Assembly: GCF_000239275.1 (NCBI RefSeq)
Contig: NZ_JH417599.1
Location: forward strand, 1 to 46,717
Length of the DNA: 46,717 nucleotides
Direction of reading: 5' to 3'
From: Megasphaera geminata F0357
GTDB taxonomy: Bacteria > Bacillota > Negativicutes > Veillonellales > Megasphaeraceae
Both the position numbers and the translations under genes were made by a program. The notes beneath the pieces were generated by a model. It saw only the letters and a program-made list of their open reading frames with translations, was not told the origin of the DNA and made no database searches. This document shows positions 33,013 through 46,717 of this stretch, piece after piece. Position 1 is the first letter of the stretch. Every line of letters begins with the position of its first letter.

Positions 33013-33530
33013 TGAAAGCTGTTTTTTTTGATCGTGACGGCGTGTTGAATGTCGACGCCGGCTATGTATACAAAAAAGAGGATTTTGTTTGGACGGAAGG
33101 TGCCAGGGAGGCTCTTGCGTGGCTGACCGACGCGGGCTATGCCGTTTTTATCGTTACCAATCAAAGCGGCGTGGCCCGCGGTTATTATACGGAAGAAGAG
33201 GTGCGCCGCCTGCATGATTGGCTTTGTGCCGAAGCAAAGGCGGCAGGCGGCGCCATTACGGCCGTATATTATTGTCCCTATCTGGAAGGCGCGCCTGTCA
33301 AAGCGTATGACCGCAGGAGTTCATGGCGTAAACCGGAGCCGGGGATGATTTTGCAGGCATTTGCCGATTTTGATATTGACAAAGCGCAGTCCTTTTTAAT
33401 CGGCGACAGCCCCCGCGATCTTGAGGCGGCCCGGCGTGCCGGCCTGGACGGGTATTTATTTACGGGCGGTTCGTTGAAAGACTTTGTTGTGCATATTGCA
33501 GAGGAGAGACATAAGGGTGGAGCAGTATAA
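33012..33530 (+). CDS. gmhB: D,D-heptose 1,7-bisphosphate phosphatase
   Basis: GmhB removes the C7 phosphate from heptose 1,7-bisphosphate between the two HldE reactions. The 172-residue HAD protein has motif I FFDRDGVLNVDAGYV, FIVTNQSGVARGYYTEEE, a zinc-loop-type segment YYCPYLEGAPVKAYDRRSSWRKPEPGM, and LIGDSPRDLEAARRAGL. ATG 33012 shares a base with the hldD stop. The zinc loop here has only one Cys, unlike the four-Cys loop of E. coli GmhB. gmhA, the isomerase of the pathway, is not in this window. Confidence 0.93.
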   Translation: MKAVFFDRDGVLNVDAGYVYKKEDFVWTEGAREALAWLTDAGYAVFIVTNQSGVARGYYTEEEVRRLHDWLCAEAKAAGGAITAVYYCPYLEGAPVKAYDRRSSWRKPEPGMILQAFADFDIDKAQSFLIGDSPRDLEAARRAGLDGYLFTGGSLKDFVVHIAEERHKGGAV

Positions 33531-34546
33531 CAATATATTGATCATTAAGATGAGCTCACTCGGTGACGTCTTGCATGCCTTGCCGACTCTCTATGCGCTG
33601 CGGCAAAATCAGCCGAATGCACGTATTGTCTGGGCAGTGCATGAGGAATTCGCGGCTCTCCTGCCGGCGGCGCCTTATATTGATGAAGTTATCCGTATAG
33701 ATAAGAAAAAATTGAAGAAACTGTCCTACTGGCGCAAATTGAGAAGTATCCTGCATCCCTATCATTTTGATATTTCCATCGACTTACAAGGACTGGCTAA
33801 AAGCGCCGTCGTCGCTTTACAGCGGCGCCGGGAAAAAAGTCGGTTATTGGGAAATGCGCGAGGGCAGCTTCCTCGTCAGCAAGGGGCTGGCCGGTCCCCA
33901 TAAAAAGGGACATGTCATTGAACGGTATCTGGATGTGGTCCGTTGTCTCGGCGGGACCGTTGAGGCCGTGGAATTTCCCTTACCTTCCATTGAACAGGAA
34001 CGGGCCCGCATGCGTGAGGCGCTTAGGATGCGGACGGGAGGAAAACCCTATATTGCCGTCGTCCCCGGCGCACGGTGGGCTGTCAAAGAGTGGCCTCTTG
34101 CGTATTGGCAAGTTTTTGTGCGGCGCGTGACGGACAGCGGTATGCACGTCGTTCTCCTCGGCGGCCGCGACGATGTGTCGAAAGGACGGGTCATAGAAGA
34201 GTCTGCGGCTTCCCCGCTGCTTTTCAATTATACGGGCCGGACGACCTTAAAAGAGTTGACGGCCCTCATTGCGGACGCCGTTTTATACGTCAGTGCGGAT
34301 ACGGGACCGCTTCATTTGGCTAATGCGCTGAAAAAGGAGCTCATCGCTCTTTTCGGGCCGACCAGCCCGGAACGGACGGGACCGTACGGCGGCAAAGAGG
34401 CGGCGTACATTCATCTTCTCGTATCTCCCACGTCCGTCGCCACTGCGGACCGTCCCCTCGTGGACGATCCGGACTGCATGGCACGGATAACCGTTGACAG
34501 CGTATGGCAAACCTATGCCTCTATTATGGAGAAAACACTGAAATGA
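33517..34546 (+). CDS. Family-9 heptosyltransferase, WaaC-like (frameshift near 33816-33822)
   Basis: GT9 enzymes add heptose from ADP-heptose to the LPS inner core at the cytoplasmic face. The N-terminus NILIIKMSSLGDVLHALPTLYAL is typical of heptosyltransferase I. The C-half has VVPGARWAVKEWPLAYW, YVSADTGPLHLANAL and ALFGPTSPERTGPYG. GTG 33517 follows GAGGAGAG and overlaps gmhB by 14 nt. The frame shifts after KSAVVAL; removing one base at TTACAGC reads VALSGAGKKVGYWEM and gives about 342 residues. A sequencing insertion is likely. The exact acceptor (Kdo versus Hep) is inference. Confidence 0.9.
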
Positions 34547-36262: not shown

Positions 36263-36282
36263 CCTACAACAGTCACATAAAA

Positions 36283-36305
36283 GAGAGCCGCAAGGCTCTC
36301 TTTTT
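36283..36305 (+). terminator. Terminator of the outer-membrane protein gene
   Basis: GAGAGCC (36283-36289) pairs with GGCTCTC (36294-36300) over a GCAA loop, followed by TTTTT. It marks the left edge of the A+T-rich CRISPR block. From 36306 to 36486 the DNA is A+T-rich and non-coding; a TATAAT at 36465-36470 is the best promoter element, with only a poor -35 box. Confidence 0.9.
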
Positions 36306-36486
36306 GTGTGGGGAAATTAGGGGCCGTGAATATAGGTAGCAATAAATATGTGATTATTTGTATAGTATAAAAATAAGTTTTAGTTAAAGGCGAAGGGAAA
36401 ATAATGAATAATTAATATAGAACTATTATTACAGGAATGTTACAATAGCTATATGTAATTCATGTATAATGTGAGGTGAATTTAGA

Positions 36487-37449
36487 ATGGAAGATTTGGG
36501 AAAATCGGAGTTAAAAGCTATTTTGCACTCTAAAAGGGCTAATATATATTATCTTGAAAAGTGTCGTATTATGCAAAAAGACGGACGAGTGCTATATCTT
36601 ACAGACGGTAAAAAAGCCAATTTATATTGGAATATACCGATTGCCAATACAACGGTTATTTTACTCGGAACAGGAACCTCTATCACTCAGGCAGCCATGA
36701 GGTTGTTGGCTGCAGCAGGAGTCCTTGTCGGATTTTGTGGTGGGGGCTGTACGCCCTTATTCTCAGGTGGGGAGATAGAATGGCTAAACCCTCAAAGTGA
36801 ATATCGGCCGACTGAATATTTGCAACGGTGGATATCTTTTTGGTTCAATGAAAATAAACGATTAGAAGCAGCCAAATATTTTCAACGCAAGCGATGTGAA
36901 TATTTAGAAAAAATTTGGGACAAAGATCGTGAATTGGGGCAATATCAATTCTACTTAGATGATAAAGCTGTAGAACAGGCATTGACAATATATAAAAGGA
37001 ATATTGAAGTTGCTGGAGATGTTACAAAGCTGCTGACATCGGAAGCTGAATTTACTAAAAGACTATATAAATATGCGGCACAGAAAACAGACAATAATGA
37101 ATTTATAAGAAATCATGACGGAGCGGATAGTTCCAATACATTTTTAAATCACGGAAATTATTTGGCTTATGGACTAGGGGCGTGTACTTTGTGGGTTTTA
37201 GGTATACCGCACGGATTGGCCGTGATGCACGGGAAAACGAGACGAGGGGCTTTGGTATTTGATGTCGCAGATTTAGTGAAAGACACCCTAGTATTGCCGT
37301 GGGCTTTTATATCAGCATTAGAAGGACGCAAAGAACAAGAGTTCAGGCAAACTTGTTTACAAAAATTTACGGAACATAAGGCGTTGGATTTTATGTTTGA
37401 AGAAGTCAAAAATGTGAGCGCTCTATTTAAGGCGGATGATATATTATGA
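36487..37449 (+). CDS. cas1: CRISPR integrase Cas1, type I-F
   Basis: Cas1 inserts new spacers at the leader end of the array; in type I-F it works with the Cas2-3 fusion. The product is 320 residues. The N-terminal beta domain begins LKAILHSKRANIYYLEKCRI with VLYLTDG; the I-F hallmark GTGTSITQAAMRLLAAAGVLVGFCGGG follows. Candidate metal ligands are E186/E188 (LLTSEAEFTKRLYKYAA), H248 (GLAVMHGKTRRGALVFD) and D259/D262. The start follows GAGGTG. It overlaps cas3 by 4 nt (ATGA). The base composition is visibly richer in A+T than the LPS genes to the left. Confidence 0.95.
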   Translation: MEDLGKSELKAILHSKRANIYYLEKCRIMQKDGRVLYLTDGKKANLYWNIPIANTTVILLGTGTSITQAAMRLLAAAGVLVGFCGGGCTPLFSGGEIEWLNPQSEYRPTEYLQRWISFWFNENKRLEAAKYFQRKRCEYLEKIWDKDRELGQYQFYLDDKAVEQALTIYKRNIEVAGDVTKLLTSEAEFTKRLYKYAAQKTDNNEFIRNHDGADSSNTFLNHGNYLAYGLGACTLWVLGIPHGLAVMHGKTRRGALVFDVADLVKDTLVLPWAFISALEGRKEQEFRQTCLQKFTEHKALDFMFEEVKNVSALFKADDIL

Positions 37450-40400
37450 TGGTTTTATTTACCAGTCTTAGCGAGAAAAAATCTATCTCTACGGTTAGGC
37501 GCATTCTTGACAGCTTTGCCGATAGAATCGGGGATAATACTTGGAAAACGGTTATAACGGCAGACGGTCTTGAGGCCGTTCATACCTTATTGCGCAAGAG
37601 TGCGACCAAAAGTACAGCGGTATCTTGTCATTGGATACGATCGCGCAGTCGAAGTGAATTGGTTTGGGTTGTGGGTAACAGGGACGCTTTTAATGAAGCG
37701 GGGGCGGTACCGGTAAATCAGACAAGTAAGAATATAAATCGTCTTGACTGGGAAAATAACTGGCATTACATGCCGTTGTTGAAAGCCCTCGTTGCTGTGG
37801 CTGCACTTTTTCATGATTTAGGTAAAGCGTCAGACCATTTTCAAAAAAAGTTAGCACAAAAATCATTGAAAGCTGATCCGTATCGTCATGAATGGATTTC
37901 CTGTAAGATTGTAGAGGCATTGGTAAATAGTACTGATTCGGTAAATGACGATATGAAGTGGTTAATGGCATTAAAGGAAGGACGTGTGGACTTTTTTGAA
38001 TTACGTAATTATATAGATAAGAATGTAGTAGACTTTAAAGCAAAATCTTTGAAACCAACGTTTGATTATTGGATGCAATTACCGCCTTTGGCTCAAGCCG
38101 TATGTCATTTAATTTTGGGACACCATAGATTGCCGGTATTTGGTGGAAAATCATCCGGTAAAAACGAATGGGAGCAGAAGGAAGATAAACAAGACTGGAA
38201 AAGATATAGCGGAGAGAAAAAGTCAGTAGCGGATTTATGGAAAAGTATAAATGCACGATGGGGATATAGGAATGATAATTCGGACATTGAAAAGGATAAT
38301 GTTGATGTTGTATCTTGTTTTACTTTTTCCAAAGGATTAATTGGTGTAAATACCCCTTTATGGGCGAAAAGTGTAAAAAAATGGTCTGCACGGTTATATG
38401 CGTGTTTTGTGTACAATCCAGATATTTTTGTTAGACAAGAAGACCATAGCGGAGATTTTAGAAGCCTTATGACGTATAGTCGCTTATGTCTGGTGTTAGC
38501 AGATCATTATGTGTCTTCTACGGTCAGTGACGGCACAAAATTCAAGGCAGAAAAAAATACATTATGGGCTAATACGCGAAACGGGAAAATGAATCAAGGA
38601 TTAGAAGAACACTTAGTACGTGTATGTGAACAGGCCGTGCGAATTGCTCATAATTTACCGCGTCTGTCTGAAAATATGGAAGCCGTTCAAGATAACAAGG
38701 CTTTAAGTAAGAAAAGTCCTAAGGCATATAAATGGCAAGATATGGCAGTTGACAAAATTAAATTATTTAGAAAACAATCGGAACATGATAATGCCTTTTT
38801 TGTAATTAATGCAGCCAGCACCGGATGCGGGAAAACATATGCCAATGCAAAAATTATGCAAGCTCTTTCTAAAAAAGGCAATTCATTACGATATATCTTA
38901 GCGTTAGGACTACGATCATTGACTTTACAAACAGGGGACGAGTATAAAGAACGAATTCATCACAATGAATCTGAATTGGCCGTATTAATTGGGTCTTCGG
39001 CTATCAGCAAATTACATGATGAAGAAAAAAACGAGTACGAACCTGCACTTGTTGATGAACCGGAATCCCTTCTTACGGAAGAAGTTTGGTATAAAGATAC
39101 GGAAGATGGGGAACAGATTCAATTCTTGTGATATATTTTTTGATACACAAACCAGTCGCATGTTAAGTAAGAAACAGGCACAGAAGAATCATGCCCTCAT
39201 GTACAAGCCGGTGTTGGTAGCCACTATTGACCATATTATGGGAGCGACGGAAAGCATTCGCGGCGGGAAATTTATTTTGCCGAGCTTACGGTTAATGTCT
39301 TCCGACCTGGTAATTGATGAAATTGATGATTTTAGCCAGAAGGATTTAATAGCCATTTGCAGATTGGTTCATTTAGCAGGTTTATTCGGTAGAAATGTAA
39401 CGATTTCATCAGCTACCATTCCTCCGGATTTAGCCGAAGTATTATATCGATCGTATGCAGCCGGGTTAGACTGTTTTTCATCGTTTTATGGGTCTATTAA
39501 ACGGCTGGTAGTTATTCATTGTGATGAATTCGGCTGCCAAGTAATGCCTGCAGCACGTAAAGGAGATTTTAAGCCGTGCCATGAGCGATTTATTCAGAAA
39601 CGTGTGAAAAATTTGGGGCAGCAACCGGTAAAACGCAGGGGAATTATTCAAGAGATCAATCGAGCAAAAAATATATCACAAGAAGATTTGTCGACTATGG
39701 AGGAACAATATTTCGCATGTATGAAAGATGCGGCCGAACAACTTCATTATGCTCAGCACGTTACGGATAAAAAAACGGGCAAACAGGTTTCTTTCGGCAT
39801 TATACGCGTAGCTCATATTGATGCATGTGTGCGGCTTTGCAAGTATTTACTGGATTGTCTTTGGAGTAAAGATATATCTGTACGTCTGATGGCTTATCAC
39901 AGTCGACAAATCTTATTATTGCGGCATGAGCAGGAAAAGTACTTGGATTCTGTACTGAAACGAAAGGAACAACAAGAACGCATCGTGGATTTTGTTGAAC
40001 CGATTGTCAGATCTCATATAGATAATTGCTCGACTGACAATATCTTATTTATTGTAGTAGCGACTCCGGTTGAAGAAGTGGGGCGTGACCATGATGCCGA
40101 TTGGGCGGTCATAGAACCTTCGTCCTATCGCTCTATTATCCAATTGGCTGGACGAGTAAGGCGGCATAGAAATAGGGATAATGTGGAACCTAATATTGCT
40201 GTCATGCAGTTTAATCTAGCCGGACTACGGAAACAGAAAGTAGCCTTTACACACCCCGGATATGAAACAAGTGTGTTAACAGTAGAACATGATTTAAAAA
40301 AATGTCTTAATGAGCAGCAATTAAGAGAACGAATCGATGCAGTCCCTCGTATTAACAAACCTAAAAAGCTATGTCCCCATGATAAACTCATTGATTTAGA

Positions 40401-40872
40401 ACACTGTGTAATGGAAGAATTAAACCGCTTGGACAACGCCGGTCCGGAAGTGATAAACGGATGGATTAATGAAGGCTGGTGGTTGACAGGAATGCCGCAA
40501 TACATCAATCGATTTAGAGAAAGTTCTGATAAGGATGTAAAATTATTTGCTGTATTTGAAGATGGGAGAATCAGGTTTAAAGAATATAGCGGGATAAATG
40601 GTGTCGTTGATAAGACAGAAATTTATAATATATCACAAGATGCTGCATTATCGCCTTTAGCAGAAAACCGATTATGGATAAGTAGAGATTATGAGGCGGC
40701 ATTGCGTGAGCGATCGGAAGTCGGTGAAGATGAGGAAGAAAAATTGCTAGCGGTGGCAAAGCTATATGGAGAGATTGTACTTCCCGATAAAAATCAATCC
40801 AGCAAAAATGAATGGTTGTATTCTGATCAATTCGGATTATTTAAAAAGAAAGGTGGCGAAGAAGAGTTATGA
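37446..40872 (+). CDS. cas3: Cas2-Cas3 fusion nuclease-helicase, type I-F (frameshift near 39108)
   Basis: This is the type I-F effector that unwinds and cuts target DNA and takes part in adaptation. Residues 1 to about 95 resemble a Cas2 domain (MMVLFTSLSEKKSISTVRRI). An HD nuclease follows (ALFHDLGKASDHFQKKL, HD at 123-124). Then comes the SF2 helicase: Walker A ASTGCGKTYAN near 458, DEID box (LVIDEIDDFS) near 620, SSATIPPDLAE, and motif VI QLAGRVRRHR near 898. The frame breaks just after KDTEDG; taking one G from GGGG 39108-39111 reads DGNRFNSCDIFFDTQ and gives about 1141 residues, the family size. A homopolymer error is likely; if real, interference would be lost. It overlaps csy1 by ATGA. 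Confidence 0.94.
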
Positions 40873-42035
40873 ACACATTAGAAGAATATATAATGAAGGA
40901 GTCGGAGGCGTGGAGTAAAAAGAATAAGCCGATAACTTGGATGGATAATATTATTGAAAATATTGGAAAATGCCGAGTGGCAACCCATGTAGGTAAATTT
41001 ACTCATTCAAAGTCTAAGGTTTCGATAAGAATTTTCAACGGATTTAATACTAATATAAAATATGTTATTACAGAATCAGTTAAATGCAAAGAGGATATCG
41101 TTTATGAAAGTGCAGCATATATGGCGGCGGCTAAGTTTTTAGATTTAATGTTGGAAGACGGCAATAGAGTGATTGATCATATTGTTAATAATGATATGGA
41201 AGTTCAGACTTTGGTTGAACAATATGGTGGAAATTATAATATACTTTTAGAAAAATTAAAAATGGCAACTAATTTGATAGAAAATAGTAGCACCGAAAGT
41301 ATATTAAAGCAAGTGTATTTCCCTATAAATGAGCGACAATATCACTTGTTAACAATATTGCCTAATTCGTCTGTAATGTGTGAGCTTTCTCGCCGAATTA
41401 GGGAGATGATAAGTATACGAAATGATGCACGAGATACTAAGAAGGAGTCGGATATAGGGCAGTATAAAGAAATACTAAATAGAACAATTATTGGTTTTGG
41501 TGGGGCACAACCTCAAAACGTTAGTGTCTTAAATTCCATGAATGTAGGTAAGTATACTTTGTTAGAGAGCTTGCCTCCTATGATTGAAAAACGAAATTTA
41601 CGATATCCTAAGAAAGACTTCTGGAATGAAACGATGAGGTATTACTATGTTTCGGGGATTATGAAGGAACTTCATTTAAACTTATGTAATGATCGGAATA
41701 ATTTGACCATAAGAAATAGAATTAAGGAGAATATACATAGTCTAATAGATAGGGTGCTTCAAATGAAATATAAACTTTGGTCAGAGTATCCTTGTTGGAT
41801 AAAGCACGATATATATGGACAGCTGCCTAAAGAACAGATAGTATGGCTAGACCTTGAAAATGATATGGATCTTAATAGCGAGATGATTGATACTCTTAGT
41901 AAGGCATTCTCAAGGTGGCTGATACACACTTACGGAAGAGTGTTAAAGAAAGACAGCCTTTCTCTAGGTAGTGAAGAGTTTAGATATTTTGCACATTGTA
42001 TGGAAGATGTGCTTAAGAAGGAGGTGATGAGATAG
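40869..42035 (+). CDS. csy1: Csy1/Cas8f, large subunit of the I-F surveillance complex
   Basis: Csy1 sits at the crRNA 5' handle and, with Csy2, recognises the CC protospacer-adjacent motif. The 388-residue product is intact and carries the family block GFGGAQPQNVSVLNSMNVGKY (about 212-232), comparable to GGTKPQNIS in gamma-proteobacterial Csy1, followed by LLESLPP. It is somewhat shorter than the about 430 residues of Pseudomonas Csy1. The start overlaps the cas3 stop (ATGA). Confidence 0.9.
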   Translation: MNTLEEYIMKESEAWSKKNKPITWMDNIIENIGKCRVATHVGKFTHSKSKVSIRIFNGFNTNIKYVITESVKCKEDIVYESAAYMAAAKFLDLMLEDGNRVIDHIVNNDMEVQTLVEQYGGNYNILLEKLKMATNLIENSSTESILKQVYFPINERQYHLLTILPNSSVMCELSRRIREMISIRNDARDTKKESDIGQYKEILNRTIIGFGGAQPQNVSVLNSMNVGKYTLLESLPPMIEKRNLRYPKKDFWNETMRYYYVSGIMKELHLNLCNDRNNLTIRNRIKENIHSLIDRVLQMKYKLWSEYPCWIKHDIYGQLPKEQIVWLDLENDMDLNSEMIDTLSKAFSRWLIHTYGRVLKKDSLSLGSEEFRYFAHCMEDVLKKEVMR

Positions 42036-42038
42036 ATT

Positions 42039-42903
42039 ATGAAAAAGTATATTCTTATATCTGAACTGGCGATACATAATGCTAATGCTATGAGCAGTAC
42101 TATTACAATTGGCGTGCCAGCTATGACCGCTTGGCTTGGAGCGGTACATGCATTAGAAAGGAAAATAAATAAATCATATAAATTTGAAGGAGTGCAATTT
42201 CCGTGTACAACTGTGTCTTATTTAAAAACAGATCTACAGGTGTATAAAGGTCACGGGGATTATGCCAATTCAATTATAGGTACGGCAAACCCTTTAGATG
42301 ATAAGGGTAAACGTGCCTCCTTTATAGAGGAACCGAGAATTCATTTGAAGGTATCTCTATTAATAGAAACTGAAGGCCTTGCCGGGGACTGTGAAGATAA
42401 ATTTATAGAGATTTTTTCAAAAGAATTATATAAAAGTAAGTTTGCCGGTGGCGATGTAATGGATTTTGAACGTGTACGACTTGTTTATAGTAATGGAGAC
42501 GTACATGATACCAGAAAGATAGTATCAATGCTCATGCCGGGGTTTGTTGTAGTAGAGCGTAAATTTCGTTTTAGATAATAGTGATGAGGATGCGTTAGAG
42601 CGATTGTTGAATTATTTGGCTGTTTACAATACAAAAGAACAGCATGAAGGAAATGCTGAATGGATTAAAAGTAAAAAAGAATCCGGTTGGTTAGTTCCTA
42701 TAGCAGTTGGATTTAAACGGATTTCAGAGATAGGGAAGATTAAAGGGCAGAGAGATAAAAGCAAAAACCATTGCTTTGTGGAGCCGGTTGTAACTATCGG
42801 TGAATTTAAAATGGCTTATCGTTTTGAATCAATTGATGACATGATGTGGCACTATGAGTATAAAGAAAATGAAAAACTTTATTTGTGTGTAAATCAACAA
42901 TAG
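42039..42903 (+). CDS. csy2: Csy2/Cas5f, I-F complex subunit (frameshift near 42561-42568)
   Basis: Csy2 pairs with Csy1 at the crRNA 5' handle. The N-terminus KYILISELAIHNANAMSSTITIGVPAMTAWLGAVHAL fits Csy2, as does the later LLNYLAVYNTKEQ and GWLVPIAVGFKRIS. The frame breaks after FVVVERK and resumes as VLDNSDEDALERLLNYL; removing one base of AAATTTC (42561-42567) restores about 287 residues. A sequencing insertion is likely. GGAGGTGATGAG lies upstream of ATG 42039. Confidence 0.9.
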
Positions 42904-42915
42904 GAGGAATGGACA

Positions 42916-43940
42916 ATGACAAAGAAAAAAGACGGAGTGGCATCGGTATTAGCATTTGAGAAAAAATTGGTTTTTTCGGACGGGTATATGTACGGTACAA
43001 CTTGGGAGGAAAGGGAAAGTAAGGCATCTCCGATTAAATTGATGGAAAAAGCTGTGAGAGGCACGATTTCTAATCGATTAAAGAAGGCGATTACCGATGA
43101 CCCTGTGAAACTAAATGCTGAAGTAGAAAAAGCTAATTTGCAGTTGGTTGATGCAGCAGCTTTAGATTTGGCACAAGATACACTGAAATTAGTATTTACA
43201 TTAAAAATATTACCTGGGATTGAATTTCCTTCTGCATGTAATGATAAAACTCATCAAGAAAATATTTATAAAATGGTTATCAGTTATATCGAGAACTATG
43301 GGTTTGATATATTGGCGAAACGGTATGCTATCAATATTGCTAATGCACGTTTCCTCTGGAGAAATAGAGTGGGAGCGGAAAAAATTGAAACATGTATTCG
43401 TGTCTTAAATAATTCGTCTCAGGAATGGAAATTTGACTCGTATAATTTCCAATTAAATGATTTTGATGTACGGATCTCGAATTTGAGTGAATTGGCGGAA
43501 ATAATTGCAAAAACTTTATCCGGAAAGAATGAGACGGTGTTGTTGGAAGTAACTTCTTATGCCAAGGTTGGTAAAGGGCAAGAAATTTATCCCAGTGAAG
43601 AATTAGTCTTGGATAAAGGACGCGGGCGGAAAAGTAAAATTCTATATAGTATAGATGGAATCGCCGCTATGCATTCACAAAAGCTTGGGAATGCTGTTCG
43701 CACGATAGATACTTGGTATCCTGAATGTGAAAGTAATGAAGGTAGAGCAATTGCAGTGGAAACATATGGGGCTGTTACTAATTTAGGGTGTGCATATAGA
43801 AGAACTTCGGATAAAAAAGATTTTTATACTTTATTTGACAAACAGTCTAAAGTGGAGAGTTAGCTGAAGAAGCTGATAAGCATTATGTTATGGCTATATT
43901 GGTTCGCGGTGGTGTATTCGGACAAAGTGAGAAGGAGTAG
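42916..43940 (+). CDS. csy3: Csy3/Cas7f, backbone subunit of the I-F complex (frameshift near 43849)
   Basis: Six copies of Csy3 line the crRNA spacer. The product starts MTKKKDGVASVLAFEKKLVFSDG and includes RFLWRNRVGAEKIE and YPSEELVLDKGRGRKSKILY. The open frame stops at 43863 after FDKQSKVES, but the next frame continues SGELAEEADKHYVMAILVRG, then GVFGQ, to a TAG at 43940, the conserved Csy3 ending. Restoring one A in AAA 43849-43851 joins them as about 341 residues, the family length. Unlike most other breaks in this window this one fits a lost base. The start follows TAGGAGGAA; the stop lies 2 nt before the cas6f ATG. Confidence 0.92.
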
Positions 43941-43942
43941 AG

Positions 43943-44515
43943 ATGAAATATTATCAGGATATTACGTTATTGCCTGATACGGAAATTCCTTTACATTTTC
44001 TCTTGTCCAAAGTTTTTTCACAAATTCATCTTGAATTTGCAGAAGTAAAAAATAGAGAAGGGAATATACCGTACGCCCTTTCCTTTCCGGAATATGGGGA
44101 AAACACATTAGGCACTAAATTACGGATTTTTAGCAATGAAAAGGCTGAATTAGAGAAATTAGATTTGAGAATAAAGCTAAGTAAGTTTGAAGATTATATA
44201 CATATAACAAGAATTAGAGATGTTCCTACGAATGTTAAAGAATATGAAATATTCAGCCGTTATCAGGTAGATGGATCCGTACATCAAAAAGCGAACCAAT
44301 ATGTGAAACGCCATGACGGAGTTACGTATGAAGAAGCCGTGAAATTTTTGCAGCAAAAAGTAAGTAAAACAAAACTACCGTACATACAGATGATTAGCTT
44401 ATCCAACCGCAACCACTTTAGACTGTTTGTCAAAAGGACGACAGTTAACAGTCCCTTACAAGGAGAATGTGGATCTTATGGACTAAGTTTACAATGTGCA
44501 ATACCTAAATTTTAA
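43943..44515 (+). CDS. cas6f: CRISPR endoribonuclease Cas6f (Csy4)
   Basis: Cas6f cuts the pre-crRNA at the 3' base of the repeat hairpin and stays bound. The 190-residue product is intact. The catalytic histidine is H29 (LLSKVFSQIHLEF), the same number as in Pseudomonas Csy4, and the serine region is MISLSNRNHFRLFVKR. The end VNSPLQGECGSYGLSL is the family C-terminal block. The start follows GAGAAGGAG in the csy3 tail. The CRISPR leader begins right after its stop codon. Confidence 0.94.
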   Translation: MKYYQDITLLPDTEIPLHFLLSKVFSQIHLEFAEVKNREGNIPYALSFPEYGENTLGTKLRIFSNEKAELEKLDLRIKLSKFEDYIHITRIRDVPTNVKEYEIFSRYQVDGSVHQKANQYVKRHDGVTYEEAVKFLQQKVSKTKLPYIQMISLSNRNHFRLFVKRTTVNSPLQGECGSYGLSLQCAIPKF

Positions 44516-44647
44516 CCAAAAATTTCTGAAACTCGTTGGAATTGCATAAAATAGCGGTTGAAATAAGAGACGAAAATAATTGGGTATTAATAAGACAAAT
44601 CTCAATAGCATAAGTCTGTGTCTGGAGTGAAGTGTTTTGGTGGAACA
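44516..44647 (+). promoter_or_regulatory. CRISPR leader
   Basis: The 132-bp A+T-rich non-coding stretch between cas6f and the first repeat is where the array promoter and the integration signals should lie. I see no clean pair of -35/-10 boxes (TTGAAA near 44559 and TATTAA near 44586 are too far apart) and no clear IHF site. Confidence 0.7.
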
Positions 44648-46717
44648 GTAAACTGCCGAATAGGCAGTTTAGAAACCTGTACCCTTATAGGTTAGGAGGT
44701 GAGAGCGAGTAAACTGCCGAATAGGCAGTTTAGAAATTATGCTTTTCATGTTTTTTAATAACGTCGTCGTAAACTGCCGAATAGGCAGTTTAGAAAGAAT
44801 GGGCGGAGGATCTCATCATAAAAGAATTGTAAACTGCCGAATAGGCAGTTTAGAAATTGAGGTCGCCCACTTCCAGATCCTGGAAGTCGTAAACTGCCGA
44901 ATAGGCAGTTTAGAAACAGCGCCGGCTTACCTGCTCGGTACCGAGATACGTAAACTGCCGAATAGGCAGTTTAGAAAAGTCGGCGGCGTGAGCCATATCC
45001 TCATCGCCGGTAAACTGCCGAATAGGCAGTTTAGAAATACATCACCGCGCGCGGTTGCCGCAACACGTCGTAAACTGCCGAATAGGCAGTTTAGAAATGA
45101 ATAAACTCGTCCCGCTTGGTCATCCTTGTGTAAACTGCCGAATAGGCAGTTTAGAAATTGATAAGATGGCGTTACATGGCAAGGAGGTAGTAAACTGCCG
45201 AATAGGCAGTTTAGAAAAAAGAAAAAACCGGGGCGAAAAAGAAAAAAAAGTAAACTGCCGAATAGGCAGTTTAGAAATTCGGCCAATCTGTTACTTTTAT
45301 GACCTATTAGTAAACTGCCGAATAGGCAGTTTAGAAAATTGACGGGAATATGCCAAACGACAACCAATAGTAAACTGCCGAATAGGCAGTTTAGAAATTT
45401 AATGTTGACAAGGAAAGGGCCACAGCAGAGTAAACTGCCGAATAGGCAGTTTAGAAAGCCATGCCCGATGAATCCATCGCTGGTCTTATGTAAACTGCCG
45501 AATAGGCAGTTTAGAAATGATATCCAAATACTTCATTATCCTTTTCAGTGTAAACTGCCGAATAGGCAGTTTAGAAATTGACAGCTTGGCGCTTGGACGG
45601 CGGCATCGTGTAAACTGCCGAATAGGCAGTTTAGAAATGGCATTGGCCTACAGTGGATTTCTCGTTATCGTAAACTGCCGAATAGGCAGTTTAGAAATAT
45701 ATTACGTATTTGCGCTTCCGAAAGCGCTTGTAAACTGCCGAATAGGCAGTTTAGAAAAAACTGGCAACCTCGACGCTAATACTACTCTAGTAAACTGCCG
45801 AATAGGCAGTTTAGAAAATCATCAACACCGCATCACATGCCCGCTCCAAGTAAACTGCCGAATAGGCAGTTTAGAAATTCAGTGCCGGACATAACTTGCT
45901 GTGCATTCAGTAAACTGCCGAATAGGCAGTTTAGAAAAGTAGAATCTTTTTCGCCATATTCAAAGTTTTGTAAACTGCCGAATAGGCAGTTTAGAAACAA
46001 TACATCAGAAAGAACACTGGAAGCTGTATGTAAACTGCCGAATAGGCAGTTTAGAAATATATAAAGACGGCCTAAAGCTCTGCCTGGAGGTAAACTGCCG
46101 AATAGGCAGTTTAGAAAGTGCGGCATATACAAGAGCGACGAAGAGACCAAGTAAACTGCCGAATAGGCAGTTTAGAAAAAGTGGTAATTCAACACCTGCG
46201 CCCTTCTGCGGTAAACTGCCGAATAGGCAGTTTAGAAAAATTATTGTTAATCCCGTTATGCAGACGTCAGGTAAACTGCCGAATAGGCAGTTTAGAAAGA
46301 TAAAGTACTGGCCGAAACGCAAGCAACGCGGTAAACTGCCGAATAGGCAGTTTAGAAAATATCATCAATGATTCTATCAATTGTCTCCTTGTAAACTGCC
46401 GAATAGGCAGTTTAGAAATCGTTGCTTAAATCCCCGCCGAAAAATCCAAAGTAAACTGCCGAATAGGCAGTTTAGAAACAGCACAGTAAGTACTCGGTGC
46501 CGTTTTTGTCGTAAACTGCCGAATAGGCAGTTTAGAAATTGCTGATATGACAAATCAGTCCTTACATTTAGTAAACTGCCGAATAGGCAGTTTAGAAAAG
46601 AATACTCCAATCGTCCCGGTGCTCGATAACGTAAACTGCCGAATAGGCAGTTTAGAAATGTGGCGTCTTATCCGACGTTGCAGACGTTTGGTAAACTGCC
46701 GAATAGGCAGTTTAGAA
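44648..46717 (+). CRISPR. Type I-F CRISPR array, 35 repeats and 34 spacers, open at window end
   Basis: The 28-bp repeat starts GTAAACTGCC and ends AGTTTAGAAA. Its centre is a hairpin: TAAACTGCC, loop GAATA, GGCAGTTTA. Repeats begin at 44648, 44709, 44769, 44829, 44889, 44950, then every 60 nt to 46090, then 46151 and every 60 nt to 46691. The last one lacks only its final base because the window ends. All copies look identical by eye. Spacers are 32 nt, except the first (44676-44708), fifth (44917-44949) and twenty-fifth (46118-46150), which are 33. All 34 spacers look different. The cas operon lies on the leader side in the same direction, so the newest spacers should be at the 44676 end. 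Reading frames across the array (VNCRIGSLE-type repeats) are artefacts of the repeat. Confidence 0.98.

Follow-up and report, generated by a model that had tools for sequence, protein, structure and literature searches.

The window analysed here, that is, the whole stretch of 46,717 nucleotides from Megasphaera geminata F0357, comprises the first 46,717 bases of the 109,557-base contig NZ_JH417599.1 and carries a CRISPR-Cas (clustered regularly interspaced short palindromic repeats and associated proteins) locus of type I-F. The I-F operon lies on the + strand at positions 36487-44515, its genes following one another in the order cas1, cas2-3, csy1, csy2, csy3, cas6f, and each of the six was matched, far beyond chance, by its own NCBIfam and Pfam I-F model.

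The cas1 gene (Cas1f; 36487..37449, + strand) is intact, encodes 320 amino acids (aa) and scored 477 bits against TIGR03637. The cas2-3 fusion (37446..40872, +) occupies two frames as assembled, 561 aa up to position 39131 and the remainder in the other frame; Pfam Cas3_I-F_Cas2, Cas3_HD and Cas3-like_C_2 were found in it, TIGR02562 matched both pieces, and PF21384 fell at residues 1-79 of the reading, with the HD and helicase parts behind it. The csy1 gene (cas8f; 40869..42035, +) is open and encodes 388 aa, its N-terminus being short like those of the other Negativicutes loci tested, and is an ordinary family match across residues 21-374 (PF09611, 237.7 bits). It is followed by csy2 (cas5f; 42039..42903, +), again in two frames as assembled, both pieces of which were matched by PF09614 (167.6 and 109.6 bits), by csy3 (cas7f; 42916..43940, +; PF09615, 429.4 bits), in which a frame break near the C-terminus places the last stretch in the other frame, and by the intact cas6f (csy4; 43943..44515, +; 190 aa, His29 kept; TIGR02563, 129.6 bits; PF09618, 177.9 bits). 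Scores for csy1 and for the two pieces each of csy2 and cas3 were below the NCBIfam whole-protein cut-offs, and the DEAD and HD matches of the cas3 piece were under the Pfam ones; the Pfam cut-offs were passed by the Csy1, Csy2, I-F Cas2-domain and Cas3 C-terminal models. When as many as 84 loci were aligned, the conserved columns included Cas1 E186, H248, D259 and D262, Cas3 H123 and D124, and Cas6f H29, all known catalytic positions.

A leader-like stretch of 132 bases (44516..44647, +), recognized by its position and, by eye, by its AT richness, follows cas6f and extends to the first repeat. The portion of the array within the window (44648..46717, +), recognized by its repeat structure, contains 35 of 60 repeats, the last of the 35 being short by one base, and the array runs on to contig position 48202. 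The window ends where a run of 10 N (46718-46727) begins inside the array, and this scaffold gap means that the real number of repeats may deviate from 60. Repeats are palindromic and 28 nt long, and spacers measure 32 nt, except for five complete ones of 33 nt. With up to three mismatches allowed, no copy of the repeat was found in the rest of the genome assembly (88% complete). Since the degenerate repeats sit toward the distal end of the array, its young end is presumably the one next to cas6f.

The csy1-4 genes form one operon (csy2 and csy3 split as assembled) and a cas2-cas3 fusion, likewise split as assembled, adjoins cas1; the locus is a genuine system of type I-F1, a kind already known. 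The sequence-only reading had described a complete I-F system in canonical order. Its gene set, gene order, leader and long array were all confirmed, and its completeness has to be qualified for three of the six genes, which are split as assembled.

Type I-F in Negativicutes

Csy3 was detected in 35 of 380 Negativicutes genomes (about 1 in 11), two of which (G244 and G253) hold only a variant with an HNH domain, and in 7 of 15 genomes of the genus, the window's genome counted. An even sample of 398 genomes from the whole phylum gave four with Csy3, all of them Negativicutes and this genome among them. Of the rows listed for that sample, 14 belong to the class and 10 do not, and the 374 other genomes, which gave no match, were taken as lying outside the class by kinship order, so that the count of Csy3 outside Negativicutes is about 0 of 384. 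A passage of a 2019 survey does not name I-F among the Cas subtypes exceeding 1% in its Firmicutes set of 1,189 genomes (PMC6452273), and a passage on two vaginal Megasphaera phylotypes reports CRISPR-associated proteins in both, naming no type (PMC8767330). Within the literature searched, with limited terms, we recognized no published canonical I-F system of Negativicutes, only papers on HNH-Cascade. These counts add to the bacterial groups in which I-F is known, and in the sample of the phylum it was seen in this diderm class alone.

For the gene trees we gathered 36 Negativicutes loci including that of the window, eight loci from plasmid and phage collections, that of ICP1, and the best 80 of at least 568 named loci. 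The named loci were found by Csy3 alignment, and the set is biased to loci resembling the window's; five duplicates among the 80 were removed. Three HNH variants were excluded from the six-gene trees, for which a locus from outside the class qualified only with the full set of six genes, near-duplicates being thinned manually. A record named 'Acinetobacter phage MD-2021a' (CAKLQF020000007.1, L077) contains a whole I-F operon next to hemL, thiE and rapA and resembles a bacterial chromosome.

In the six-gene tree of 84 loci (33 from the class and 51 others) all 33 Negativicutes loci formed one clade, with a value of 100 in the approximate likelihood ratio test (SH-aLRT). The thinned, careful six-gene tree of 50 loci (24 and 26) likewise united 24 of 24, with support of 100/100 and in 100% of 200 bootstraps, and the Cas1 tree rooted on Escherichia coli Cas1e united 28 of 28 (100/98). 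The locus of the window was found neither within nor sister to a proteobacterial clade, which would be the sign of recent transfer; its sister is the locus of Colibacter massiliensis (G338), a member of the same genus (100/100 in the six-gene tree, 99/82 with Cas1). A further trait of the class is the start of the Csy1 match, at model position 28 in the window and at 28-61 in 32 of 32 Negativicutes loci, versus position 10 or lower in 78 of 82 non-Negativicutes loci (the split locus L049 and the HNH variants were left out of this count).

Two single-gene trees give weaker backing to a single Negativicutes branch, or none. The Cas6f tree shows one clade at weak support (66/100), and the Csy3 tree alone needs four changes and recovers a single clade in 0% of 200 bootstraps. 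The branches starred in the Csy3 tree force only one change and are compatible with a single clade; with its long branches (HNH variants, ICP1 and others) this tree is weak for settling a single origin. As the Negativicutes loci form one clade, a transfer across phyla, if there was one, would have been old. The sequence-only reading, which had proposed acquisition by cross-phylum transfer, was therefore right in outline and probably wrong in timing: it is the Negativicutes clade as a whole that stands beside the mostly proteobacterial radiation, while the locus itself has its sister within its own genus. The cross-phylum step would be old and class-wide, and the recent step would have taken place within the class.

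A deep Negativicutes clade following the species tree had been named in advance as evidence against transfer. The clade exists, and it does not follow the hosts. In the rpoB tree both large host families are single clades, and the window's genome and a sister species (G339) are sisters, joined next by C. massiliensis. The six-gene I-F tree joins G334, of the window's genus, with Mitsuokella multacida from another order (100/100), at an I-F distance of 0.216 versus 1.10 for rpoB. Other groupings cross host lines as well, namely G342 with G287 (89/82) and G345 with G279 and G281 (97/100), and G263 and G264 are nearly identical in rpoB (0.026) and distant in I-F (1.03). These discordant groupings indicate that the I-F tree within the class does not follow its hosts. 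Some host signal remains, which speaks for the opposite view, with a Spearman coefficient of 0.29 between host and I-F distances over pairs of 24 genomes. At the DNA level, an operon of the window's genus (L035, 5363-14195) and that of M. multacida (L043, 5328-14159) are 78-80% identical across most of their length. In G333 (L034, 10238-19936) the operon is rearranged, with csy1-csy2-csy3-cas6f, the array, and then cas1-cas2-3.

Taken together, we read the locus, with a probability of about 0.83, as an ordinary chromosomal type I-F1 adaptive immune system against phages, part of an old I-F lineage of Negativicutes, which appears, from the comparison of trees, to have passed between families and orders within the class.

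Site of the island, frame breaks and probable direction of transfer

The left edge of the I-F island was placed at 36263..36486 (no strand), where homology to the sister species G339 stops at about 36309; it resumes at 48434, so that G339 has about 670 bp where the contig has about 12.1 kb. The gap in G339 holds an open reading frame of 123 aa, and no Csy3 was found in that genome. An empty site in related genomes, which had been proposed as a check on acquisition, thus exists in G339 at the very place of the window's island. The cas genes have 37.4% G+C versus 50.3% for the contig, and the module has less G+C than the DNA on either side of it in 28 of the 31 Negativicutes loci with enough flanking sequence (HNH variants included) versus 38 of 65 others. 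The island adjoins metH, and the junction of an outer membrane protein gene with metH is common, among seven genomes compared, to the window's genome and G339; G338, G333, G334, G342 and G345 have other genes there. A scan of 6-7 kb flanks at 11 I-F loci found no tRNA gene beside the window's island, and a model of insertion at a tRNA was dropped on this ground. In G345 (G345:C1:278267-289096) an I-F island also abuts a metH-like gene, its cas operon pointing the other way; no shared insertion hotspot is proposed, as that neighbour is only 38% identical to the metH beside the window's island.

The I-F site of C. massiliensis, in turn, corresponds to about 105 bp in the window's genome (contig 83104-83210), with a left flank of 1.9 kb. 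Because the nearest I-F relatives lie at different sites, independent insertion fits best, and we favour insertion into the window's genome rather than loss from G339, the likeliest source of the island being another member of Negativicutes.

The main rival of this account, which we hold to be unlikely yet ahead of the other alternatives, is vertical inheritance in the group of G338, G339 and the window's genome, accompanied by relocation in the chromosome and loss in G339. Several observations speak for it. The closest host with I-F, C. massiliensis, also holds the closest I-F; the host tree, with the window's genome and G339 as sisters and G338 outside, agrees with the pairing of window and G338 in the I-F tree save for the copy absent from G339; and the ratio of I-F to rpoB distance for that pair is 5.1, the eight highest ratios listed being 6.9 to 40. 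At the empty site of G338 in the window's genome, the right flank extends over only about 590 bp at 69% identity, and the rest of it lies on another contig of the window's genome; G339 shows only the left flank at that place. On the other side, each copy's site is empty of I-F in the other genome (with a short right flank at the 105-bp site), the outer membrane protein gene of G338 is followed by different genes, and the island differs strongly in G+C from the contig.

As assembled, three cas genes are broken by one frame change each, near 39131 in cas2-3, near 42563-42574 in csy2 and near 43848-43857 in csy3, which counts against a working system. Were these true pseudogenes, the locus would be a decayed remnant. 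To judge this, open reading frames of G339 and G338 were compared with the contig at a minimum of 60% coverage and 40% identity, and 13 frame switches were found in 12 genes among 82 conserved genes (79,486 bases) outside the island. At that rate the cas genes, 8.0 kb in all, would be expected to carry about 1.3 switches, so that the three observed are a possible excess over 13 in 79.5 kb, but not a significant one (Poisson probability about 0.15). Genes reading as der and as an ispH-rpsA fusion on the same contig, and rpoB on another contig of the same genome, are also frame-broken, which a living cell could hardly afford. Since conserved genes elsewhere carry similar breaks, those in the cas genes more likely stem from errors in assembly or sequencing. 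The repeats, moreover, are intact and the spacer targets described below mostly carry the expected motif, and decay was judged improbable after the contig-wide comparison. A heptosyltransferase gene at 33484-34546 of the window is likewise split by a frame break, a further sign of assembly errors.

The direction of the old transfer was presumably from Proteobacteria to Negativicutes. The Negativicutes clade stands beside a radiation composed mostly of Pseudomonadota, and inside it when the tree is rooted at the midpoint or by Cas1. The root is not firm, owing to the very long branch of the Cas1e outgroup, and this is a weakness of the proposed direction. An origin of I-F in Negativicutes with later passage to Proteobacteria is compatible with an unrooted tree, in which the Negativicutes clade is simply one side of a branch; it is very unlikely, as that clade falls within other diversity whether the tree is rooted at the midpoint or, for Cas1, on Cas1e, and all positives in the phylum sample come from Negativicutes. 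Least probable of all is a recent, direct transfer of the window's locus from a proteobacterium or a similar donor outside the class, which the low G+C of the cas island would suit, as would the identity of Csy3 (63.2% to the Colibacter protein, 62.6% to a Desulfobacterales protein) and the rank of the best match from outside the class, third for Csy2 and Csy3, right after two copies of the Colibacter locus, and seventh for Cas3, but that match ranks 12th for Cas1 and 15th for both Csy1 and Cas6f (duplicates counted), the short Csy1 N-terminus is common to the window and the class, and the G338 locus is nearest by path in every tree (Csy3, both six-gene trees, Cas1, Cas6f) and the starred sister in the Csy3, Cas1 and both six-gene trees, within starred sets made up of Negativicutes alone.

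Spacer targets, proposed working and comparison with known systems

The 58 complete spacers were compared with the 380 genomes of the class, and 57 of them (33 + 24) with the phage collection, spacer 10 being omitted there for its low complexity. Six of the 58 (spacers 12, 15, 35, 37, 42 and 43) match phages or prophages with no more than four mismatches in the best match. Spacers 12, 15, 35 and 37 point to Microviridae found in the faeces of animals, their best matches differing at 2, 3, 4 and 4 positions; spacer 12 (45338..45369, +) matches a replication initiator gene with two to three mismatches, spacer 15 (45518..45549, +) a stretch annotated as similar to VP1 with three, and both targets carry 5'-CC. 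Spacers 42 and 43 match one prophage of the sibling species G339, 1.9 kb apart and with two mismatches each, in a region of phage-family DNA helicase, primase-helicase and DNA polymerase genes that is the same as an IMG/VR contig; further matches of spacer 42 lie in several viral contigs and in a region of G345 homologous to this one. Shuffled spacers gave 1 match in 20 sets with up to seven mismatches and 4 in 20 sets with up to eight.

The I-F protospacer adjacent motif (PAM) is CC on the 5' side of the protospacer. This dinucleotide precedes the best matches of spacers 12, 15, 37, 42 and 43, that is, five of six, or five of seven if the doubtful match of spacer 11 is counted, against a background of 4.9% (0.049) of dinucleotides in the phage loci examined. 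The presence of the I-F PAM at the targets argues that an I-F adaptation machinery assembled the array, against phages of such hosts, either in this lineage or in a close donor. Several details run counter to this. The best target of spacer 35 is flanked by TC, weaker homologous matches of spacer 35 in three loci and of spacer 37 in one lack CC, the five-mismatch match of spacer 11 has a CG flank and probably arose by chance, and partial matches of spacers 10 and 29 in genomes of the class stand outside the PAM tally. It may also be that the spacers arrived together with the island. Two degenerate spacer patterns gave no matches, and no relatives were confirmed among viral contigs through the microvirus replication protein.

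The records of the faecal microviruses (L251, L252, L265 and L266) that the four spacers match name no bacterial host, and the matches suggest a host among Negativicutes; some spacers can thus point to a host for faecal Microviridae records that lack one. A record named 'Listeria phage LM 4-11-1' (OR847206.1, L268) matches spacer 37 in the manner of Microviridae capsid genes, with seven mismatches and no CC, and its host label may be wrong.

If expressed, the operon would work as follows. Cas1 and the Cas2-3 fusion would capture 32-nt pieces of phage DNA beside a CC motif, and these would be inserted into the array on its cas6f side. Cleavage of the repeat hairpin by Cas6f would yield guide RNAs, Csy1, Csy2 and several copies of Csy3 would form the targeting complex, and Cas2-3 would degrade the target. 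The expression and the cleavage are predicted from the gene content. As to history, the Negativicutes branch of I-F would have parted long ago from the mostly proteobacterial radiation and later moved within the class, the copy in the window being a low-G+C island beside metH that its nearest relative lacks at the same place.

No match of the RecC family above the cut-off was found in any of the 380 genomes of the class, with the E. coli control positive; a single sub-threshold match (19 bits) occurred in G133. Many I-F arrays of Negativicutes hold dozens of repeats, and such long arrays without detectable RecC speak against a strict dependence on RecBCD. That I-E and I-F systems lacking Cas4 may depend on RecBCD for adaptation is suggested in a passage of PMC6452273, and I-F growing independently of RecBCD in Negativicutes would, if true, contradict the suggestion made there. 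The class offers a natural case of I-F array growth without detectable RecC, in which the dependence can be tested. The wider proposal of an old, class-specific I-F branch that spreads among families and adapts to single-stranded DNA microviruses and temperate phages without RecBCD seems to us only slightly better than an even bet.

Known I-F1 systems have a 28-nt palindromic repeat, 32-nt spacers and a CC PAM. Those of Gammaproteobacteria (Ypest; Acinetobacter, Shewanella, Providencia) share with the window the six genes and their order, the Cas2-3 fusion, the sizes of repeat and spacer, and the PAM, whereas the window's locus belongs to a separate Negativicutes clade in another host phylum and its Csy1 match starts 28 model positions in. 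The I-F locus of Colibacter massiliensis (L036/L086), nearest by path and of the same gene order and genus, lies at another chromosomal site, with protein identities of 40-79% by gene and different repeat letters. Type I-F3, borne on Tn7-like transposons, lacks cas1 and cas2-3 and has a fused Cas8-Cas5; the window, where cas1 and cas2-3 are present and csy1 and csy2 are separate genes, does not belong to it (TniQ was not searched for). Three other Negativicutes loci (L052, L067 and L068, in G244, G253 and G266) consist of csy3, cas6f, csy2 and a Csy1 at whose end an HNH motif can be seen by eye, with neither cas1 nor cas3 found in the stretches examined. They look like the HNH-Cascade, an I-F1 variant described from Selenomonas sp. 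as having no Cas3 and an HNH domain at the end of Cas8 (PMC11459484). With that Selenomonas system the window shares the occurrence of I-F in Negativicutes, and it differs in having Cas1, Cas2-3 and an ordinary Csy1, which set it apart from the HNH-Cascade.

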